Positions 219 through 11,789 of a DNA stretch of 64,000 nt are shown piece after piece. The DNA is from Sulfurospirillaceae bacterium. GTDB lineage: Bacteria > Campylobacterota > Campylobacteria > Campylobacterales > Sulfurospirillaceae. A program made the position numbers and the translations under genes. The stretch covers positions 1 to 64,000 of the forward strand of contig JAQUWL010000005.1 of NCBI GenBank assembly GCA_028692875.1. The letters are read 5' to 3'. Under the pieces are notes generated by a model. That model saw only the letters and a list, made by a program, of their open reading frames with translations, was not told the origin of the DNA and made no database searches. The stretch's first letter is position 1, and every line of letters begins with the position of its first letter.

Positions 219-3008
219 TTATGCTTTCTTAAGCTTAACAGAACATTTTTTGAAGTCTGTTTGCTTTGAGATAGGGCATGTTGCGTCTAGACAAACTTTA
301 TTGATCATTACTTTTTCGTCAAAAAACGGAACATATACCAATCCTCTTGGTGTTCTGTTTCTTCCTCTTGTCTCAATACGTGCCTTAACTTCGCCTCTTC
401 TGCTCTCTATCCAGATCAATTCGCCTTGTTTAAAGCCTTGCGCTTTAGCGTCTTCTGGATGCATATAACAAAGCGCTTCTGGAACCGCACGATAAAGCTC
501 AGGAACCCTCATGGTCATTGTGCCAGTATGCCAGTGCTCAAGAACACGACCTGTACACAACCAGAAAGGATACTCTTTGTCTGGCATTTCACATGGATCC
601 ATATAAGGTCTCATAAAGATTTTTGCTTTGTTTGCCAAAGAGAACTCTTCTGCGCCCTCAGGTTTTGTCAAGCTTCCTCTTTTGAGTTTTTTCATAGCTC
701 CACCGTAGAATGCAAATTCGCCAGTGTTAGCTTTTGCTGCATACGGATCGTACTTAGCGTTAAATCTCCACTGAGTCTCTTTGCCATCAACGACTGGCCA
801 TTTTAGACCTCTAACTTTATGATATGTATCGAAGTCTGCCAAGTCATGTGCATGACCTAGTCCAAACTGTCTATACTCTTCCCACAATGCTTTTTGCATA
901 AAGAAGCCATAACCTTTCCATACTTGACCATCACTACCTAGTACATTTCTGCTATCGCCGAAAACTTCAGTATTGTCATAGCCTTCACCGATAGGATCTT
1001 TTGGCTTGAAAGATTTCATATATGGAGTTGCAAAGAGTACATCATAAAGTGTATCTGTCTCTTTGTATCCCATCTCTTTAGCTTTTCCGATAACATTTGG
1101 TATCTTGCCACCTTTTATAGGTTGCTCGCCCCAAACATCAGCGATAGTAAATCTCTTAGAAAGCTCGATATACTGCCATGTATCACTCATTGAGAGACCA
1201 GTTGGTATAACTTGTTGTCTCCAGTGCTGTGTACGTCGCTCAGCATTGCCGTAAGAACCCCACTTCTCATAAATCATAGCTGTTGGCAAGATAAGGTCAG
1301 CAACTTTTGCTGAAATACCAGGATAACCATCAGAACATACGATAAAGTTATCAAGCTCACGTGCTGCTTTCAACCAGTGGTTAGCGTTCGCAGTATCTTG
1401 GTATGGATTACAAACGTTTACCCATGCAAATTTGATTTTTCCACTTTCGATTTGTCTGTGGATATTCATAATATGCTGATATCCCATTGGATTAATCGTT
1501 CCCGCAGGAAGTTTCCATACTTTTTCAGTAATCTCTCTATGCTTTGGAATAGCACAAACCATATCCGCAGGAAGTCTGTGTGTAAATGTTCCTACTTCTC
1601 TAGCAGTTCCACAAGCTGATGGCTGTCCTGTAAGTGAAAACGCACCGTTGCCTGGTTTTGCTTGTTTGCCCAACAAGAAGTGAACCATGTATGATTGCTC
1701 ATTTACCCATGTTCCTCTTTGGTGTTGGTTCATACCCATTGTCCAGAAAGATACTACTTTTCTGTTTTTATCAACATACAATTTTGCCAATGCTTGCAAT
1801 TTTTGCTTAAACGCATCCAAAGACTCGTCTGGATTTCCTTTAGAAATCTTTGCTACATAATCAAGTGTATAAGGCTCTAAACCTTTTTTAAACTCTTCAA
1901 AGCTAATCTCCCAGTGAGCACCAGCTTTTCCGCTATTTTTCATCTCCATCATATCGCCAGCTTTGTAGCCAAATGGTGCAAGAGCTGGAGCCTCTTTTTC
2001 GCTAACGACTTTTTTCTCTTCTTTTGAAATAGTCTCAAGCTCTTTGTCTGAATAGCCAAGTTTTTTAGCTTCAGCAGGCATTCTCATACCATAACCGATG
2101 TTTACAAAACCTGTTGTAAAGATAGTGTGTTTTTTAACAAAATCCCAATCAATAGAATCTGGATAATTGAACACAATCTCTCTTGCTAGATAGTTCCAGA
2201 TAGCAAGGTCTGTGCTTGGAGAGAAGATAATCTCTATATCTGCAAGGTCAGATCCTCTGTGTGTATATGTAGAGATGTTAACAACTTTTACTTTTTCTGG
2301 ATCTGTTAGTTTTCTATCACTAACGCGTGACCAAAGAACTGGGTGCATCTCAGCCATATTGGCGCCCCATGTAACGATAGTATCTGTTAATTCGATATCG
2401 TCATAACAACCTGCTGGCTCATCAATACCGTAAGTCTGCATAAACGCAACAACCGCTGATGCCATACAGTGACGAGCATTTGGATCGATACCATTTGATC
2501 TAAAACCACCCTTCATCAACTTAGCGATAGCATATCCCTCTTGGATAGTATATTGACCTGAACCAAATACACCTATTGCCTCTGGACCACCTGCTTTGAA
2601 CGCTTTTTTGATGTGTTTTTCCATCTCATCAAAAGCACGTTTCCAGCTAACTGGTTGGAACTTACCTTTCTTATCAAACTCACCCTTATCGTTCATACGA
2701 AGAAGTGGTTCTTTAAGACGGTCTGCACCGTACATGATTTTCGCAGTAAAATATCCCTTGATACAGTTAAGACCACGGTTTACTGGACATGCTGGGTCAC
2801 CTTTTACGGCAACAATTTTACCCTGTTTTGTTGCAATCATAATACCACAACCGGTACCACAAAAACGACAAACTGCTTTATCCCAACGCCAACCTGCTTC
2901 AGCTTGTTCTGCTGCGGCCTGAGCCTCTTTAGGTACGCTAATACCTACTGCTGCTGCTGCACTTGCGGCGGCTGTTGTCTTAAGAAAGTCTCTTCTTGAA
3001 AGCGACAT
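219..3008 (-). CDS. napA: Periplasmic nitrate reductase catalytic subunit NapA
   Basis: This 929-residue molybdoprotein reduces nitrate to nitrite in the periplasm. A Tat signal (SRRDFLK, then an Ala-rich stretch) is followed by the [4Fe-4S] ligands Cys47, Cys50, Cys54 and Cys82, and by the molybdenum-ligand region NARHCMAS with Cys181. It needs bis-MGD, whose synthesis involves mobB at 14.4 kb. The length agrees with epsilonproteobacterial NapA, which is about 100 residues longer than the enterobacterial form. The start has an AGGAGGT ribosome site seven bases upstream. Expression is probably driven by the promoter and Fnr-type box at 3039-3081. No key residue is missing. Confidence 0.98.
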
Positions 3009-3114: not shown

Positions 3115-4512
3115 TTATGACTCTTGAGTCTCTTTTTCAGAAGCCTGAGGTGCGTATTTGTGGTCTTCCATGGCATTAAGACTCTTTTTTAACTTTTGTA
3201 GCATTCTGGTAACATGTATCAGATTTTCAGCAGATTGGATAGCTATATCCTCCGTAGCATTGACATTTTTATCGAAACGATTTTTTTCACTCTCATCAAT
3301 ATCCATATCACTAATAGCATCTTCAACATCTTCGGCTAGCTGTTGCAGTTCACTAATCGCATTTTCGGCACGCTCAATAGCCTCTTCAGAGTGACTCATC
3401 GCAGAGTTTACTTTTTTTATAAATTTGGAGATATGAGAAGATGCCTCTTTTAGCTCATCCTCGCTGTTTTCATGGTCTTCGTGAAGTATCATATTTTGAT
3501 TTTTAATATTTTCAACATCAGCAAACGAAAGCTCTTTTGTTTTTCGTATAAAATCGTCTAGGTGTGCCACAATATCTCTTGAAACTATAAAAGAATAAAG
3601 TATGATAATCAAAGCCACCAACAAAGACAGATACTGAAATACAACAAAGAAGTTATTTTGCCTTTCGCTATCATCTGTATACAACCAAACCGCCTCATCC
3701 ATAGTGTTTAGAAGTTTTACATTTTTTTCATAGATGTATGCGAGGCGCTTATTGATGTCTCCTTCTATATTTAGGAGTTTAGTCAAATAAGCTTGATACT
3801 CTTCCCAATATGCGTGAACCTCTTCAACACTCCTGTAAACATCGGGGTATCTCTTAAGCTCCTCATCTGTTACAAAATCCTCAACAGTGCTTCCATACAA
3901 ATTTTTCGCCTCGAAAAAGAGAAGAAAATCCTGCTTGTTGTCCGTCCTAAGATATCTCTCAATATAAAATCCCATTCTTTGAGACAACATCCTTTGTCTG
4001 CCAGAAAAGTCGATATACAAGCCACGCAAATCTTCTGTTACCATTTTTTTGACAACAACATCTGAGAGCGACAAAAGTTTTTCTGTTTTTTGTGTTAGTG
4101 TTTCTATCTCTGGCTTAACCTCATTGATATCTTTTTTTAAAGCCTCAATCTCTTTTTTAAAGGGCTTCCAAATCTCCATAACCTCGCTTAGCTTAACCTT
4201 GATACTCTCATCTCTAGGCGTATATATCCCTTTGGTCTCATTTCCAAAGAGCAGGTCATTTAGATTTTTCTCAAACAAATCCACAGCCGTATCTATCTCT
4301 CTAAAATCGTTGGAATGTCTATGTATAATAAAAAATATATCTTTGCTCATTTTTTGAGAAAGCATCCTCTGCTTGCCTGCAATATTTATGATTAGAGAGT
4401 CTTTTTTGCTTACGTCATTCATGGAGACTGTCAATAAAATAATTAAAACAATAATAAACGAGAGAAGTCCCCCAACAAGTCTCATTTTTGCGCCGATACT
4501 AGTAGGCTTCAT
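3115..4512 (-). CDS. Membrane protein with two PilJ/NarX-like sensor motifs, no kinase or MCP tip
   Basis: This 465-residue protein has an N-terminal membrane segment (about 12-30), a periplasmic region, a second membrane segment (about 288-312) and a C-terminal coiled-coil tail. The periplasmic part carries two similar motifs, INIAGKQRMLSQKM (42-55) and FSGRQRMLSQRM (169-180). These match the PilJ N-terminal family and resemble the nitrate-binding P-box of NarX/NarQ (AGSLRMQSYR). No histidine-kinase domain or methyl-accepting hairpin tip is visible, so any output is by protein contact, which is an inference. The start at 4512 is preferred over the ATG at 4530 because GAGGA sits seven bases before it. 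It lies directly after a Crp/Fnr gene and directly before napA, suggesting nitrate or nitrite sensing. Confidence 0.7.
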   Translation of the reverse strand: MKPTSIGAKMRLVGGLLSFIIVLIILLTVSMNDVSKKDSLIINIAGKQRMLSQKMSKDIFFIIHRHSNDFREIDTAVDLFEKNLNDLLFGNETKGIYTPRDESIKVKLSEVMEIWKPFKKEIEALKKDINEVKPEIETLTQKTEKLLSLSDVVVKKMVTEDLRGLYIDFSGRQRMLSQRMGFYIERYLRTDNKQDFLLFFEAKNLYGSTVEDFVTDEELKRYPDVYRSVEEVHAYWEEYQAYLTKLLNIEGDINKRLAYIYEKNVKLLNTMDEAVWLYTDDSERQNNFFVVFQYLSLLVALIIILYSFIVSRDIVAHLDDFIRKTKELSFADVENIKNQNMILHEDHENSEDELKEASSHISKFIKKVNSAMSHSEEAIERAENAISELQQLAEDVEDAISDMDIDESEKNRFDKNVNATEDIAIQSAENLIHVTRMLQKLKKSLNAMEDHKYAPQASEKETQES

Positions 4513-4522
4513 AGCTATTCCT

Positions 4523-5188
4523 CTATTCATAAATCTTTTTCAGCTCGTTCATGTTAAGCACTACTACACTGTTTTTGATAATCTCAATGGTGCCATTTCG
4601 TGTCAATTTTTTAAGGATTCTAGAGAGTGTTTCTGGTTGAATATGTAACATGTAGGCTATTTCGTGTTTTTTTAGATTGTTAAAATTTTGAAGATCATTA
4701 GCAAGCATATGAGCCACTTTAGCAGTGCCATCATATACTACATCTCGGCTTATTACCTTTTGCATTTGAACAATGGCGGAAAAAGATTCAAAAAGCATTT
4801 TTTGAGACAAGGAAACATCAGCGTAAAAAATCTCTCTAAAAACATCTCCGTTAAACTCTATTATCTCACTATCTTCTAAAAATTCTGCATTGGCGTAACA
4901 CTGAGTTTTGGAGATATTGCTAAAACTTGCCAAATCAAAAACCAAAGAGTTTCCAAAAAGCGAGTAGAGAAAAACTTCATTGTCAAATCTATCTACTTTA
5001 TAGAGCTTTAAAGAGCCACTAACAAGATAAAATACTTCATTTTTTTTCTCTTTTTCATAAAAAAGAACATCCCCTCTACTAAAGTATCTTATTGTTGAAG
5101 AGGCTCCCAGTTTGGCTATAGCCTCGCTATCAACATCTTTTAGAAGTGGTATAGAATGAAGATATGTATCGTTGTAAACGCTATTCAT
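4523..5188 (-). CDS. Crp/Fnr-family regulator (Nss-like), nap-linked
   Basis: This 221-residue protein has an N-terminal cyclic-nucleotide-binding-type beta barrel (about 15-120), a dimer helix and a C-terminal helix-turn-helix. The recognition helix PETLSRIL keeps the Glu-xx-Ser-Arg pattern that in Fnr reads TTGA half sites, matching the palindromes before napA and the octaheme operon. It has one isolated cysteine and no Fnr-type cysteine cluster, so it is not a classical oxygen sensor. Fnr-like proteins without clusters (NssR in Campylobacter, NssA/B/C in Wolinella) respond to nitrogen oxides. Its stop lies about 10 bases before the PilJ-domain gene, so the two are probably co-transcribed. 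The effector is unknown. Confidence 0.82.
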   Translation of the reverse strand: MNSVYNDTYLHSIPLLKDVDSEAIAKLGASSTIRYFSRGDVLFYEKEKKNEVFYLVSGSLKLYKVDRFDNEVFLYSLFGNSLVFDLASFSNISKTQCYANAEFLEDSEIIEFNGDVFREIFYADVSLSQKMLFESFSAIVQMQKVISRDVVYDGTAKVAHMLANDLQNFNNLKKHEIAYMLHIQPETLSRILKKLTRNGTIEIIKNSVVVLNMNELKKIYE

Positions 5189-5258: not shown

Positions 5259-5798
5259 TTAGTATTTGTAAAAAATACTCAATATGCACTTTTCGTTTGT
5301 CACCATATAGACAGCAACATTAACTAGGTTATCAGGGGTTAAGCCTAAAGATTTCAATCTTTCATTTACAGCATCTTGCATATCTTGCTCTTTAAAACTA
5401 GTATGAACTATACTGACCCGAACTTGTGCTTTATCACTAACATTTGCCTGAAAACTTGCATCTTTTGGCTTGTTGTCTAGCATAAATTTAAAAGATGAGC
5501 CTTGATTTAGGTTTAAAATAGATGCGACTTTTGGGCTGATAAACTCCTTCCAATTTTCTCCATCATGTTCAAACAAAACAACAACATTGTAGTCATTTTC
5601 AACTTTTATCAAATCGCCTTTCTTTGGGCTAGGAGGAAAAGGGTCAAACTCGCCTATAACATTTACCTTTGAGAGCAAACTTTTTACCTCTTTCTCGTCT
5701 CCTTTATCCAAAAGCTCACGCAATGGGGTTGATCCAAACAAATGATTTACTAAAAGCAAAAGGACAAAAAGACCCTTTAAGAAAGATAGAGTACTCAA
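5259..5798 (-). CDS. Exported protein of unknown function
   Basis: A 179-residue product with an N-terminal hydrophobic signal (FLKGLFVLLLLVNHLFG) and a soluble, lysine-rich remainder that I do not assign to a family. It contains a Pro-rich segment (FDPFPPSPKKGD, about 51-62) and a single cysteine near the C-terminus, with no heme or metal motif. It overlaps the upstream gene by four bases (ATGA-type), so the pair is translationally coupled. Its place between the octaheme operon and the nap regulator suggests a periplasmic role in nitrogen-oxide metabolism, but only by position. Confidence 0.6.
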   Translation of the reverse strand: MSTLSFLKGLFVLLLLVNHLFGSTPLRELLDKGDEKEVKSLLSKVNVIGEFDPFPPSPKKGDLIKVENDYNVVVLFEHDGENWKEFISPKVASILNLNQGSSFKFMLDNKPKDASFQANVSDKAQVRVSIVHTSFKEQDMQDAVNERLKSLGLTPDNLVNVAVYMVTNEKCILSIFYKY

Positions 5799-6430
5799 TT
5801 TCCGCTCGTTATCTCTTCTAGCAATTTACCAGAAGAAAGCATAAGATAAACACTTGCATCTTTTATTTCATTCTCTTTTATCATTATTTCTTGAGAAGAG
5901 ACTAACTTTACGGTTATATATGCGTCAAAATCAACTTTTTGATTTTTTGTCTTAATAGTATCTGCAAGGTTTCCCTCTTGCACTTCAGCCGAAAGCGAAT
6001 CTTTGTATTTCTTCAAATCTTCATCGGTAAGAAGTTTTCCATTTTTATCATAGCTCCAATATAACATCTTCTCGTGTGCAGTGGCGGTTGGTTCAGAATA
6101 ATCTATAAAGCACTTTCCAATAATCTCTTTCATCTTCTTGCCATCAACAGTACCATAGTCTTCGTACACAATCAAAACTCTATCATTGCTTTTTTTAGCT
6201 ATAACATTTAGATTTTTATCTTTAAATTTGTATGTACCAGCATAGGCCTTTTCACTTGCAACATTTGTCTTAGCTATCTTTTTTTGCTCATCCGTTAAAA
6301 CCTTTCCGATAACATAACCACCCAAACCCATGTTTAAAGAGGCTACTTTATCCTCTAACTCACTTGCTTGTGCAACACAAAAAATTGCCGAAAAAGCCAA
6401 AACCAAGAACGTCCTAAACACTGATTTCAT
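5795..6430 (-). CDS. Exported protein of unknown function
   Basis: A 211-residue protein with a clear signal peptide (cleavage likely after AQA at about 22) and no recognised domain. The mature part is rich in Lys and Asp and includes a segment around LMLSSGKLLEE near the C-terminus. It is the first gene of a two-gene unit with its own promoter, and is separated from the octaheme operon by a strong terminator at 6511-6547. A palindromic TTACATGTAA lies in its leader at 6452-6461. Function unknown. Confidence 0.6.
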   Translation of the reverse strand: MKSVFRTFLVLAFSAIFCVAQASELEDKVASLNMGLGGYVIGKVLTDEQKKIAKTNVASEKAYAGTYKFKDKNLNVIAKKSNDRVLIVYEDYGTVDGKKMKEIIGKCFIDYSEPTATAHEKMLYWSYDKNGKLLTDEDLKKYKDSLSAEVQEGNLADTIKTKNQKVDFDAYITVKLVSSQEIMIKENEIKDASVYLMLSSGKLLEEITSGN

Positions 6431-6510: not shown

Positions 6511-6547
6511 AAAAAAAAAGGGGTGCTGAGCAAAAGCCCAACACCCC
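6511..6547 (-). terminator. Rho-independent terminator of the octaheme cytochrome operon
   Basis: On the minus strand a GC-rich hairpin (GGGGTGTTGGGC, loop TTTT, GCTCAGCACCCC) spans 6520-6547 and is followed by nine T residues (A's at 6511-6519 on the given strand). Two of twelve stem positions are mismatched. It lies about 30 bases after the cytochrome stop codon. Confidence 0.9.
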
Positions 6548-6576
6548 TAAAATCAAAACTTAAAATGGCTTAAAGA

Positions 6577-8175
6577 TTATTTAATACCATATCTTGCTTT
6601 GTTTTCTGCCTCAATCTGCTTCATTTGATCAGCATTGTGAGGGTTGCTTCCATCTTTAAACCATACATGCTCAGGTCTATCAATGATGTCTGCGATAAGT
6701 TTTTTATACTTATCTTCTTTGCCACCATCTTTTGCTATTTTCATAACTGCAGGCAACATTTTCTCATAGAAGTGTCTAGCAACTTCATACAGACCATGCC
6801 AGTGTGTATAGTCAGGAGCTTGCATAGCAGCACCATGTCTAGCACGTCTACCCTCATGGTGCCAAATCTCAAACCAGATATAACCTAAGTCATACTGTCC
6901 TTGACCGAAACCTGAGTTTTTAGTAAGACCATCTTTTTGCAACTCTTTATACAATGCAAGACCTGGCTTAGCAAACTTGTCGTTGTATGTTACAACAAGA
7001 GAGTCAAACTGCTTATAGAAGTTCTCAATATGGTGTGTTGAGTGGCACACTTTACAAACTTGTTGCATATTTTCTCTTCTGTCAGACCAAGCAAGAACCT
7101 CTTTGATCTTCTTCTTAGCAACTACCTTCTCAAGTACATCGCCTTTTCTTACCATCTCTTTAGCGTCGATAACATCTCCAACTTTTGGAGCAACTTCGCC
7201 TGGAACATCTTGAACTTTACCATCTTCAAACACAACCCTATTAAGTTTTGCAGAGATGATTGGTCTTAGTGTCCAAGAGATTCTATCGCCGATGTTGTGA
7301 GTTGACTTAGTGATAGAGCCATTTGGTTTTTGGATAGAACCCATGTGACATGTAGAACATGTTGGAGCAGCGCTATAGTCTTTTCCAAGAACCCACGTGC
7401 CTTTTTTCTCAATGTTCATACCGCCAGCAACTTTGCCTTTTGGAGCTGAGAAGTAAGCAATACCGTGCTTAGACTCTTCGTAGATCTCTTTTTGTGGATG
7501 ATCTGGTCCCAAGTGACACTTACCACAGTTCTCTGGTTGACGAGCACGGCTTGAGCTAAAATCGTGTCTTGAGTGACATGCATTACAAGAGCCTTTTGTT
7601 CCGTCAAATCCGATTCTACCGATACCTGAGTTAGGATATGTCATATAGTCCATCTTAGGAGCGCCAGCTTCGTTGAAGATTTTCTTGCCATTTTTGTCAA
7701 GTTCAAACTTCAAGATAGAGCCGTGGCACTGCCAACAACCATTAACTGCGTCTGCTTTTGTATCTGGGAAAGATGCAATAACATCAGCCAACATATTGTC
7801 CAAAGAAGCCATAATCTCGCCAGCTGTTGCGTGGTGAGAGTTTGTCATCTCTTTAACTTCTCTCTCGTGACAGAATTTACAGTCATTTGGAGTTTGAATA
7901 GTCTTGATAACTACGCCCTCATGCTCATATGCAGTAACATCGCCCTTATCTGCAGCATGACATGTAAAACAACCAACATTTGCATCTTTGTGAGATGAAT
8001 TTTGCCAGTGGCTAACAATTCCCTTATTCTCCTTCATGTGACAGTTAAGACACTTGTCATTTGCATTCTTGACAGCAGCGTCGTTAACCTTGGAAGAAGC
8101 TTGAGTAGTAGCGTAAGCGCCACTTGCTAAACCTATCGCCATTAAAACAGCGACAACCAATTTGCCTAACTTCAT
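6577..8175 (-). CDS. Octaheme cytochrome c of the hydroxylamine oxidoreductase (HAO) family
   Basis: The 532-residue precursor has a Sec signal (cleavage likely after AYA at 22) and eight CxxCH heme sites at 42, 69, 99, 147, 197, 217, 273 and 374. The segment CGKCHLGPDHPQKEIYEESKHG (217 onward, shown by its ends CGKCH and SKHG) and the C-terminal WHHEGRRARHG with PDYTHWHG are characteristic of HAO. Epsilonproteobacterial HAO homologues are known to reduce nitrite or hydroxylamine to ammonium rather than oxidise hydroxylamine. Genes for a quinol dehydrogenase just upstream fit a reductive role. The start at 8175 is chosen because AAAGGAG lies six bases upstream; an ATG ten codons earlier lacks such a site. 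NrfA is excluded by the lack of CxxCK, and MccA by the absence of its long-spaced heme motif. Confidence 0.88.
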   Translation of the reverse strand: MKLGKLVVAVLMAIGLASGAYATTQASSKVNDAAVKNANDKCLNCHMKENKGIVSHWQNSSHKDANVGCFTCHAADKGDVTAYEHEGVVIKTIQTPNDCKFCHEREVKEMTNSHHATAGEIMASLDNMLADVIASFPDTKADAVNGCWQCHGSILKFELDKNGKKIFNEAGAPKMDYMTYPNSGIGRIGFDGTKGSCNACHSRHDFSSSRARQPENCGKCHLGPDHPQKEIYEESKHGIAYFSAPKGKVAGGMNIEKKGTWVLGKDYSAAPTCSTCHMGSIQKPNGSITKSTHNIGDRISWTLRPIISAKLNRVVFEDGKVQDVPGEVAPKVGDVIDAKEMVRKGDVLEKVVAKKKIKEVLAWSDRRENMQQVCKVCHSTHHIENFYKQFDSLVVTYNDKFAKPGLALYKELQKDGLTKNSGFGQGQYDLGYIWFEIWHHEGRRARHGAAMQAPDYTHWHGLYEVARHFYEKMLPAVMKIAKDGGKEDKYKKLIADIIDRPEHVWFKDGSNPHNADQMKQIEAENKARYGIK

Positions 8176-8230
8176 GTAGATCTCCTTTAAAAATTTTCCG
8201 ACCAACCTTCCACTATATCATCATTAAAAA

Positions 8231-9424
8231 CTAATGAACCAACTCTTTATCAGCTTCACTCTCCCAAAGAGGGAAAATTTTGCTCAATATCCAAAGGGTA
8301 ACGATTGGGGCTACAAGCATAATAATCGTAACCAAAATACCCTCTTTGCCTAAAAATTCTGGATGGTAAACAGAGAAACCTCTTTCACTTTTTGCCATCA
8401 CTTGACCACCGATAACAACATTCCATCTCATAAACAAAACTTGTGCTAAAAGCATAAATGAAACAATAGGTCCAGCAATCAATAGAACATTTCTGCTTAC
8501 TTTTACCAAAGAAAGATAACCTAAAGCCAAAAATGGAATGATTGAAAGAATTTGAACTTGCATTATCCAAAAACTCCAGTTCAATGGACCATCAAGCGCA
8601 CTCTTGACATGATGCCAACCCTCTGTTCCGCCATACGCATGAACAGCTAGCTCAATCATCTCAAACAAAAAGTCAAAAATAAAGAATGCCCAAAGCAACT
8701 TAACCATAACTTTGATGGTATCAGTGCTGATATCTTGCATTCTTCCTGTCATTTTTTTGATAACGATATAAAATAGTATCATACCAGCAATTCCTGAAAC
8801 AGAAGCTGACAACAAGAAGATGATCGGCATCAATGGAGTAAACCACCACTCAACCGTCTTAACAGCACCAAAAATAAAACCAACATATCCGTGCAATGAA
8901 CAAGCCAAAGGAATACCAACAGCTGCCATAACAAACGCAACTTTATGGTCTCTTTTTCTGCCCTCTAGGCTAAGATCATTTGTCCAAAGCGTAAGAACTT
9001 CATAGATAGCCTTTTTAACGCCTGTTGTTGTAGCTTTAAGCGTAGTAAGCTCATATCTGTAGATAACAAGGATTTCAAAAATCAACAAGATTGAATATGC
9101 CATGTAAATATAGCCGAAACCTGACATCATAGATGGTCCAACAAAGTTTGGCGTAAATAGCATATTAAGTGCACGCTCTGGATGACCTAGATGGTTCAAC
9201 AAAGGAGCGGTAACAAAAAGTAGCCAAGAGAGTGCAAATATCAATGCGAACTTTGCAACTGGCTTCAACTCTTTAACATTAAACACGTGCGCCAAAGCAG
9301 ACACAATAAATGCTCCCGCAACAACACCCGTAATATAAGGATAAATAACAATCATCAAATTCCAATGAACGTGCTGATCATTTGGAAACACATAACTTAA
9401 TAATTCCATTGCTGCATGCTCCAT
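8231..9424 (-). CDS. NrfD/PsrC-family membrane quinol dehydrogenase subunit
   Basis: A 397-residue integral membrane protein with about ten hydrophobic helices, recognised as a large NrfD-type subunit (NrfD/PsrC/MccD group) by its helix pattern and segments such as PLLNHLGHPERA and the Gly-rich SASVSGIAGMILF. Such proteins oxidise menaquinol and hand electrons to a partner ferredoxin. Its start overlaps the ferredoxin stop (TAATG), indicating coupling. A GGAG site lies nine bases before the ATG. The octaheme cytochrome follows after 55 bases. The direction of electron flow is inferred from the operon. Confidence 0.85.
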   Translation of the reverse strand: MEHAAMELLSYVFPNDQHVHWNLMIVIYPYITGVVAGAFIVSALAHVFNVKELKPVAKFALIFALSWLLFVTAPLLNHLGHPERALNMLFTPNFVGPSMMSGFGYIYMAYSILLIFEILVIYRYELTTLKATTTGVKKAIYEVLTLWTNDLSLEGRKRDHKVAFVMAAVGIPLACSLHGYVGFIFGAVKTVEWWFTPLMPIIFLLSASVSGIAGMILFYIVIKKMTGRMQDISTDTIKVMVKLLWAFFIFDFLFEMIELAVHAYGGTEGWHHVKSALDGPLNWSFWIMQVQILSIIPFLALGYLSLVKVSRNVLLIAGPIVSFMLLAQVLFMRWNVVIGGQVMAKSERGFSVYHPEFLGKEGILVTIIMLVAPIVTLWILSKIFPLWESEADKELVH

Positions 9425-10230
9425 TATATTATCTCCTCTCTAGCGCCCACATAGTAAAGGGCTGGCTCATTTCCGAGTGGCTTTTTCAAAACTTTTAAAA
9501 CAGTTTTTGATCTAAATATTTTTGCAACTTCGCTTTCAGGATCATTAAGATCACCGAACTTTCTTGCTTGCGTAGGACATGCATTAACACATGCTGGAAG
9601 CTTGCCTTTAACAACTCTATGGTAACACCATGTACACTTATCGGCTGTTTTTGTCTCATTGTTGATAAATCTCACGCCATAAGGACAAGCTTGAACACAG
9701 TATCCACAAGCTACACAATGTTTATTGTCAACCAAAACAAATCCATCTGGTGATTTAAAGGTTGCCGCAACTGGACAAACTTGAACGCATGATGGCTCTG
9801 CACACATGTTGCATAGTTTTGGAACAAAAAACGCATCTTTGATTTCGTTTTTAATATCAGCTCTTGGAGTTGCATAACCAGCCTCTCCGCCATTTGGAGC
9901 ATCAACATAAACGGTATTGTAGATATCAATAACATATCTCTCAACCCATGTTCTGTATTGACCTTCTGGAACACTGTTTTCAGCGCGGTCTGCCACACAA
10001 CAGTTACCACAACCGATACAACTTGTCACATCTACCATAAAAGCATAATTTTTTATTTTATCCGTAGGATTAATTAAGCTTAAGCCTTTTTTGTCCTGCC
10101 CAAGCACTTTTGCAAACAACTCCGAATTCATCGGAATCATAAGCATAAGAGAGCCTGCAACGGAGCCTTTGATAACTTTTTCGATAAAGCCTCTTCTGTC
10201 TTTATCAATATAAGCTTGATCTATTTTCAT
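9424..10230 (-). CDS. NrfC/MccC-like periplasmic four-cluster ferredoxin
   Basis: A 268-residue protein with an N-terminal DRRGFIEK Tat-like motif and hydrophobic segment (about 19-36), followed by four cysteine groups: 71/74/77 plus 78, 140/143/148/152, 172/175/178/182 and 199/202/214/218. This is the NrfC/DmsB-type arrangement that carries electrons from an NrfD protein to a cytochrome. The first group is odd: the canonical fourth position (81) is Asp, while an extra Cys sits at 78. It overlaps the tetraheme gene by four bases and the NrfD gene by one, so the three are one translational unit. Confidence 0.87.
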   Translation of the reverse strand: MKIDQAYIDKDRRGFIEKVIKGSVAGSLMLMIPMNSELFAKVLGQDKKGLSLINPTDKIKNYAFMVDVTSCIGCGNCCVADRAENSVPEGQYRTWVERYVIDIYNTVYVDAPNGGEAGYATPRADIKNEIKDAFFVPKLCNMCAEPSCVQVCPVAATFKSPDGFVLVDNKHCVACGYCVQACPYGVRFINNETKTADKCTWCYHRVVKGKLPACVNACPTQARKFGDLNDPESEVAKIFRSKTVLKVLKKPLGNEPALYYVGAREEII

Positions 10231-10802
10231 TTTTCAACCCCGTCATTTGAATCTTCATCTTCTTTTTTGACTTTGCCTGATTTTGCATTTCGTACTGAGG
10301 CATCCATCTCTTCCCTTAACTGTTTAACCATTTTCATGTTTTGGTAAGGTGCATGTACTACGTGACATTGGTCACATGTATGCGTCAACTTAACCTTTTG
10401 GTCCTCTAAGTGTTTTGGCAACTCAATCATCTTAATCTTGTCTGGTCTACCTACAACTTGTTGGTGACATTTTAAACAAAGAGCTTTTTGATTTTCGCTT
10501 TTTGTAACTGGCATATCGCCAATCTTTTTGCCATCTGCAGCGTGTTTTGCAACAGGTCCGTGACATGCTTCGCATGACAATTTTTCATGCTTATCTTCTG
10601 CTGCCATCTCGTAAACCTCGATATGGCACTCTTTACAAGATTCATTCGTACCGTTTGTCAAGATACGAGAAGCCTCCTCATTGATGTAGTTACCTCTATA
10701 GTAACCATACTTTCCCCAGCTGTCGGGTACCATAAAAGCCCTTCCCACAAGGACAAGACCTATGATTCCCACGAAAACTAACGCAAGGCGCAAGTAGAAC
10801 AT
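10227..10802 (-). CDS. Membrane-anchored tetraheme cytochrome c
   Basis: A 191-residue protein with one N-terminal hydrophobic helix (about 3-24, uncleaved-anchor type) and four CxxCH sites (CKECH, CEACH, CLKCH, CDQCH). The tail is charged and rich in Lys, Asp and Glu. It is the first gene of the octaheme operon and is the likely electron carrier between the NrfCD pair and the octaheme enzyme. It is not a clear NapC/NrfH relative, because those have a different heme spacing and the NapC signature is not evident. The promoter and Fnr-type box lie just upstream. Confidence 0.82.
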   Translation of the reverse strand: MFYLRLALVFVGIIGLVLVGRAFMVPDSWGKYGYYRGNYINEEASRILTNGTNESCKECHIEVYEMAAEDKHEKLSCEACHGPVAKHAADGKKIGDMPVTKSENQKALCLKCHQQVVGRPDKIKMIELPKHLEDQKVKLTHTCDQCHVVHAPYQNMKMVKQLREEMDASVRNAKSGKVKKEDEDSNDGVEK

Positions 10803-10833: not shown

Positions 10834-10875
10834 AGTTTACTTTTTTGTATAAGAAAAAACATTGACTTAAGTCAA
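10834..10875 (-). promoter_or_regulatory. Promoter and Fnr/Nss-type operator of the octaheme operon
   Basis: The perfect 14-base palindrome TTGACTTAAGTCAA lies at 10862-10875, with its centre about 66 bases before the start at 10802, the same distance as the napA box. A -10-like TAAACT at 10834-10839 lies 30-35 bases past the centre, giving class II activator geometry. No -35 is apparent, as expected for an activator-dependent promoter. Confidence 0.8.
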
Positions 10876-11147: not shown

Positions 11148-11789
11148 TTACTCAACAAGTTGTTTTAATTTCTCCTCATTTAAAATAATAACAGAATTTT
11201 TGTCTGTTGTTTCTATAATTTTAGAAGATTTTAATCTCGTAAGCGTTCTGGAGAGAGTTTCTGGGGTTATATTTAAAATAGATGCGATTTGGGTATTTTT
11301 CAAAGTGCCAAAAAGTTCGGCATTTCGCAGTAAAAACTTTGCAACTTTCGCCTCGGAAGTTAAAACCACTTCGTTTTGAACAACATTTATAAGTATTTTT
11401 AATTTTCCTGCTAGTGATTTTATAATCATCGAAGATATTTCAGGATTTTGAAAAAACCCCTCTTCTAGCTTTTTATAATCTATCTTAAGAACCTCTGCTT
11501 TGGTTGTAAACTCTGCTGTTGCAGGATATGGAATATTTTCAAAATTTGCCAACTCTGCGATTAGGTTGAGGTTATTAAATTGATGCAAAAAAATCTGCTG
11601 ACTTTTGTGGTTTGTTTTATAAAGCTTCAAGCCACCTTTGAGTAAAACATGCATATATTCAGGATTGTCGCCCTCGTAAAAAAGTATCTCTTTTGGCTCG
11701 TAACTTTTGATAGTAGAAATCTCTTGCAATTTTTGAATATGCCTTTGACTAAGTGCCGAAAACATAGGTATTTTTTTTATTCTTTCCAT
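11148..11789 (-). CDS. Crp/Fnr-family regulator (Nss-like), linked to the octaheme operon
   Basis: A 213-residue Crp/Fnr protein with an effector-type beta barrel (about 10-115) and a C-terminal helix-turn-helix whose recognition helix is PETLSRTLTR, keeping the Glu-xx-Ser-Arg that reads TTGA half sites. It contains no cysteine at all, so no iron-sulfur cluster can form; heme or nitrogen-oxide sensing, as proposed for Nss proteins, is possible. It lies upstream of, and codirectional with, the octaheme operon but is separated from it by about 345 bases and a promoter. It is clearly a paralogue of the regulator at 4523-5188. Confidence 0.83.
   Translation of the reverse strand: MERIKKIPMFSALSQRHIQKLQEISTIKSYEPKEILFYEGDNPEYMHVLLKGGLKLYKTNHKSQQIFLHQFNNLNLIAELANFENIPYPATAEFTTKAEVLKIDYKKLEEGFFQNPEISSMIIKSLAGKLKILINVVQNEVVLTSEAKVAKFLLRNAELFGTLKNTQIASILNITPETLSRTLTRLKSSKIIETTDKNSVIILNEEKLKQLVE

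Follow-up and report, generated by a model that had tools for sequence, protein, structure and literature searches.

An NrfCD-linked octaheme cytochrome of the HAO family as a candidate nitrogen-oxide reductase in a Sulfurospirillaceae bacterium

How nitrite is converted to ammonium in sulfur bacteria that lack NrfA is a question that has been raised for Thermosulfurimonas and Dissulfuribacter (PMC5276818) and for cable bacteria (PMC10926707). In Thermosulfurimonas and Dissulfuribacter, four genes near nap were described in 2017, and a role in nitrite reduction or in sulfur metabolism was proposed for their products (PMC5276818). Here, we analyzed the same four genes in a 64,000-nucleotide stretch of DNA from a Sulfurospirillaceae bacterium (assembly GCA_028692875.1, contig JAQUWL010000005.1, positions 1 to 64,000), hereafter called the window. 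It corresponds to contig 38 of an assembly that totals 1.94 Mb and is 99.87% complete. The genes, at positions 6577 to 10802, encode a tetraheme cytochrome c (THC), an NrfC-like ferredoxin, an NrfD-like protein and an octaheme cytochrome c (OCC). We consider it rather probable that this module is a periplasmic, quinol-dependent nitrogen-oxide reductase, with nitrite as the most likely substrate, in which NrfCD and THC feed an OCC of the HAO family. The four-gene order is not new; it had already appeared, with the same hypothesis, in the 2017 paper. New here are a fifth gene, the distribution and clade of the module, its NrfA, NapA and Hcp context, and a control box.

All genes of the module lie on the minus strand, and the first four are closely packed between 10802 and 6577. 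THC (191 aa, 10227..10802) is membrane anchored, with four CxxCH motifs and an N-terminal transmembrane (TM) peak. It is followed by the NrfC/TtrB/PsrB-like ferredoxin (268 aa, 9424..10230), which has Fer4_11/Fer4_7 matches, four Cys groups and a twin-arginine translocation (Tat)-like RRGF start, and by the NrfD-like membrane subunit of a quinol dehydrogenase (397 aa, 8231..9424). These three genes overlap by 4 bp and then by 1 bp, which couples them. OCC (532 aa, 6577..8175), the predicted catalytic subunit, has eight CxxCH motifs, a PF13447 match and a signal peptide. The mechanical open reading frame (ORF) of OCC begins at a TTG at 8205; its start is most likely the ATG at 8175, which has AAAGGAG in front. 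An intrinsic terminator follows OCC on the same strand (6519..6548; 13-bp stem and U-tract; folding energy −25.4 kcal/mol, z = −5.9), confirming the initial description of one operon with a strong terminator. The four genes are real, but the boundary drawn there needs correcting, as two more genes beyond the terminator were missed: DUFA (5795..6430), encoding an exported protein, and DUFB (5259..5798), encoding a small exported protein.

Sequence and predicted fold support the assignment of OCC to the HAO family. A sequence search with OCC returned first IhOCC (4qo5; phmmer E = 1e-44), HAO and hydrazine dehydrogenase, and NrfA weakly; there was no significant match to MccA or OTR. When the predicted fold (predicted local distance difference test score [pLDDT] 79) was searched with Foldseek, 11 PDB matches were significant, and all 11 were of the HAO family. 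IhOCC ranked first, ahead of a "reducing HAO-like" complex from Kuenenia (Kustc0457/0458) and then nitrifier and anammox HAO and hydrazine dehydrogenase; MccA, OTR and the octaheme nitrite reductase ONR were not among the 11. The HAO family membership claimed initially was thus borne out by sequence and fold. The Asp-His pair of HAO (D225-H226, within GPDHP) and W459 were invariant in 20 diverse relatives, including epsilon-Hao, and M451 was kept in at least 90% of these. Trp459 stands eight residues past Met451, matching the Met-X7-Trp signature known from reductive epsilon-Hao. In the published description, the Hao signature consists of a Trp at the position of the nitrifier Tyr and a Met eight residues earlier, and the missing Tyr cross-link is linked to reductive catalysis (PMC8940962). 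The equivalence of the Tyr position is taken from that description, the HMMER local alignment to N. europaea HAO ending short of the Met/Trp stretch.

Damaged OCC genes were seen at two of the related loci (hereafter, L numbers are loci and G numbers genomes). In the single-contig genome G039, an in-frame fusion joins residues 1 to 152 of NrfD to OCC (L035:9630-10703, G039:C1). The OCC part runs from about residue 337 of a 542-aa ORF and retains one heme site, and THC and NrfC are intact. Either the enzyme has been lost naturally here, or the fusion is an error of the assembly. In G743, a frameshift splits OCC (L130:10103-11688); DUFA is present, and no THC, NrfC or NrfD was found beside OCC. 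This locus looks like a decaying or incomplete module.

The electron-input genes support the quinol-linked NrfCD entry and the dedicated tetraheme cytochrome suggested at the outset. In a Pfam search, THC did not match the NapC/NrfH/HaoC family PF03264 and matched C7/c3 instead; it is predicted to serve as an electron relay. The ferredoxin matched Fer4_11 (E = 1.9e-26), NrfC (161 bits) and TtrB (NF011569; 205.8 bits against a cut-off of 416), and its best PDB match was 2vpw_B (PsrB/"NrfC", E = 2.9e-45). NrfD matched PF03916 (E = 1.3e-39) and has about 8 to 10 TM segments, with ten hydropathy peaks, three of them near each other; it had no PDB sequence match at E ≤ 0.01. Both proteins score below the equivalog cut-offs for NrfC and NrfD proper. 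In the PDB search, THC also gave a weak match (E = 1.2e-5) to octaheme nitrite reductases, over their N-terminal triheme part, which hints at a common relay domain.

A scan of GTDB genomes yielded 205 relatives, and the best 80 were fetched with their flanks. They belong to Campylobacterota, to many Desulfobacterota/Thermodesulfobacteriota and to Krumholzibacteriota. Of the 58 loci with enough sequence, 56 have THC, NrfC and NrfD on the upstream side of the octaheme gene. Because the same upstream set recurs in these loci across at least three phyla, the four-gene arrangement is more than chance. The 2017 locus was recovered as L104 (T. dismutans S95), with an OCC that is 58% identical, the same order, DUFA and a nearby NapA. 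DUFA was present downstream of OCC in 69 of 72 loci and is therefore counted as the fifth member of the module. Its protein has a near-invariant motif, PT..AH....YW, and matches no Pfam or NCBIfam family; its AlphaFold2 model has a pLDDT of 91.6, yet gave no significant PDB fold match. DUFB was found only in the window and in five other loci, all from Campylobacterota. The distance matrices of the five module proteins correlate (r from 0.70 to 0.91, with a contribution from the species history that the genes share), as expected for genes inherited together. A search for viral contigs carrying OCC gave no match. Elsewhere, a shorter HAO-family octaheme protein (461 aa) was found behind a different tetraheme cytochrome, ferredoxin and NrfD-like protein (L124:822-5561, G639). 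This is apparently a second, distant pairing of NrfCD with HAO, independent of the main module.

In the OCC tree, the window protein falls into a Campylobacterota clade of nine (support 100/100) inside the NrfCD-linked clade. The Campylobacterota proteins are nested among those of Desulfobacterota. Transfer from Desulfobacterota to Campylobacterota is likely: bootstrap support of 96/94 favors it, and an approximately unbiased (AU) test, which does not reject a single Desulfobacterota clade (p = 0.109), keeps the alternative. The outgroup HAO sequences were represented by their HMMER-aligned segments only, so that the tree is weakly rooted at depth, where long branches come together. The HaoC-HaoA pairs (about 455 aa) and a 515-aa HAO group form another branch, apart from the NrfCD-linked OCC clade; the HaoC proteins of L007, L008, L017 and L022 belong to PF03264. 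NrfCD-linked OCC is thus a separate clade, mainly of Desulfobacterota, and not an epsilon-Hao that lost HaoC. The initial proposal that NrfCD replaces HaoC in this operon is wrong, because the HaoC/Hao pairs branch apart and the OCC clade has NrfCD in Desulfobacterota too; on these grounds the module looks imported. The reading as an epsilon-Hao with a swapped donor is rejected by the tree together with the NrfCD-linked octaheme operons of Desulfobacterota. Two loci of the 515-aa group (L133, L135) carry ferredoxin-like ORFs, a two-heme ORF and a NapA fragment on the strand of the HAO gene; L135 has a second, apparently degraded HAO copy.

We then considered the genomic context. A genome-wide profile search of the 99.87%-complete host genome detected no NrfA (PF02335), no NapC/NrfH/HaoC (PF03264) and no NirS, which answers the call for a search for nrfA, nrfH and haoC. 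The genome has one Hcp, and napA lies near the module, as had been noted (219..3008, minus strand; TIGR01706, 1374.7 bits, above cut-off). This NapA is a probable source of nitrite for the module. Strong NrfA matches were present in 4 of 54 module genomes. Since only about 4 of 297 species in a Desulfobacterota-wide comparison have the module, too few for analysis, co-occurrence was analyzed at the order level. Among 243 Desulfobacterales genomes, the module was found in 16 and NrfA in 43, with no overlap (P = 0.04, genomes treated as independent). Among 299 Campylobacterales genomes, HAO-family genes and NrfA occurred together in 5 versus about 13.5 expected (Fisher p = 0.0014, genomes again treated as independent). 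NapA, called at E below 1e-70 with the cut placed at a gap in the match list, was present in 37 of the 54 module genomes. Desulfocicer vacuolatum shows no clear NapA and no clear NrfA, and its module is immediately preceded by hcp; L063 and L094 likewise have hcp close to the module.

A Crp/Fnr-type palindrome, TTGACTTAAGTCAA (10862..10875, strand unassigned), lies 73 bp ahead of the start of THC and is the sole copy of TTGACN4GTCAA in the 1.94-Mb genome. The box also occurs at −90 in L042 and −84 in L044, and L045 has it at −74 with a single mismatch; TTGATN4ATCAA variants are found in L043 and L035. It is not present in L041, L046, L107 and L120. For HcpR, Rodionov et al. published the consensus TTGACnnnnGTCAA, located upstream of the hcp and norB genes of two cyanobacteria (PMC1274295). 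TTGACTTAAGTCAA fits this consensus. The hcp gene of the host genome itself is preceded by TTGATTGATATCAA at −72. Two genes of Crp/Fnr-family regulators flank the operon. The candidate regulator is encoded upstream (11148..11789, minus strand; PF00027 and PF13545); it has no Cys and hence no FNR cysteines, and a homologue is also found upstream of the module in L045. A Crp/Fnr regulator of the nitric oxide (NO)-responsive type probably switches the operon on. The second regulator gene (4523..5188, minus strand), between the module and napA, is kept in L033 and L045. Between it and napA, the window encodes a protein with a PilJ-type sensor domain (3115-4530), and this order is repeated in the same two loci, which suggests a nitrate/nitrite-responsive unit.

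In the proposed mechanism, NrfD would oxidize menaquinol, and electrons would flow from NrfD through the four-cluster ferredoxin and the anchored THC to OCC. OCC would then reduce nitrite, produced by Nap or taken from outside, to ammonium or hydroxylamine in the periplasm, with NO and hydroxylamine as likely further substrates. DUFA would probably be an assembly or docking partner of the complex. Nitrogen-oxide reduction is favored because of the HAO fold and sequence, the Met/Trp signature, the scarcity of NrfA, the NapA and hcp context, and the HcpR-like box. In addition, nitrate ammonification is reported for T. dismutans, a carrier of the locus that lacks NrfA (PMC5276818). Several points weigh against this interpretation. 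The mutual exclusion of module and NrfA in Desulfobacterales is only marginally significant, and shared ancestry is uncorrected in both co-occurrence tests. About 17 of the 54 module genomes have no clear NapA, so nitrate respiration cannot be the sole setting; of 82 loci, just 9 have napA within the flank that was retrieved; and NrfA accompanies the module in two of the six Campylobacterales genomes that carry it (G232, G128). NrfD-family complexes work both ways, and electron flow from substrate to quinone would be compatible with the sequences. We found no assay of any module member, and Slobodkina et al. also offered tetrathionate or polysulfide as an alternative (PMC5276818).

The same chemistry could have another role. 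The module may chiefly be a quinol-coupled detoxifier of NO, hydroxylamine and low nitrite under nitrosative stress instead of a system of growth respiration; we regard this as possible, though clearly the less probable emphasis. It would fit the HcpR-type box and regulators without FNR cysteines, the hcp genes adjoining or near the module, the sulfate reducers that carry it without a clear NapA, and the two hosts that retain NrfA. However, napA neighbors the module in the window, L045, T. dismutans and others, quinol oxidation of the NrfD type fits energy conservation, and growth by ammonification is known of T. dismutans, which carries this locus and lacks NrfA (PMC5276818). Growth respiration and detoxification may both occur, perhaps depending on the host.

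A sulfur substrate is unlikely. OCC would then act on tetrathionate, polysulfide or sulfite, like MccACD, Psr or Ttr, and it is true that most hosts are sulfur bacteria, that the ferredoxin is nearest to TtrB and PsrB, and that this alternative was raised in 2017. However, the ferredoxin likeness reflects merely an NrfCD-type partner, OCC lacks a significant MccA or OTR match in sequence or fold, and both the type of box and the nap and hcp neighbors point to nitrogen oxides. Oxidation of hydroxylamine or another nitrogen compound with electrons entering the quinone pool would be favored by the HAO homology and by the quinone-reducing direction known from NrfD-family complexes (Qrc, Hyd-2; PMC8076601). 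It is very improbable given the Trp that apparently stands in place of the cross-link Tyr, a feature associated with reductive enzymes, the mostly anaerobic sulfur bacteria among the hosts, and the type of control box and hcp association.

The five-gene module, with its marker gene DUFA and its control box, is a directly testable candidate for ammonification without NrfA. Its named carriers are T. dismutans, Desulfocicer vacuolatum, Desulfopila sp. IMCC35008 and Desulfamplus magnetovallimortis. Surveys counting nrfA alone overlook it. We give about even weight to the wider proposal that THC-NrfC-NrfD-octaheme HAO with DUFA is a distinct class of respiratory nitrogen-oxide reductase, which would serve NrfA-independent ammonification or NO defense in many sulfate reducers, sulfur disproportionators and Campylobacterota and move between phyla as a unit.

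The closest described system is the TDIS_0606-0609 locus (PMC5276818), which has the octaheme protein, NrfD, ferredoxin and transmembrane cytochrome in the same order, near nap and in the absence of NrfA. The phylum differs, and napMADGH is found there versus a Campylobacterota-type napA here. Two periplasmic unknown genes were described there as separators of two loci, whereas here DUFA is part of the module. Epsilon-Hao/HaoC (the reverse-HURM of Campylobacter, Caminibacter and Nautilia) shares the octaheme HAO, the Met-X7-Trp signature, the tendency to occur without NrfA and the link to Nap. In contrast to OCC, however, it lies on a separate branch at about 35% identity, and its donor is a NapC-type tetraheme cytochrome (PF03264) in place of NrfCD and a non-NapC tetraheme cytochrome. 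The predicted path from an NrfCD quinol dehydrogenase through a multiheme relay to a periplasmic nitrite reductase resembles E. coli NrfABCD (PMC12285233), which uses pentaheme NrfA and pentaheme NrfB where the module has an octaheme HAO-type protein and a tetraheme relay. The MccACD sulfite reductase of Wolinella (PMC8076601) likewise combines NrfCD-type subunits with an octaheme c reductase, but MccA belongs to another octaheme family and does not match OCC. IhOCC of Ignicoccus hospitalis (4qo5) is the closest solved structure by both sequence and fold; it is distant (24% when aligned by structure), has no counterpart to the GPDHP His, and differs in host and partners. Finally, pOOC of cable bacteria (PMC10926707), a Desulfobulbaceae multiheme protein proposed as a nitrite reductase, is encoded next to nap in the absence of nir and nrf; it is set beside OCC by description only, and may or may not be an OCC.

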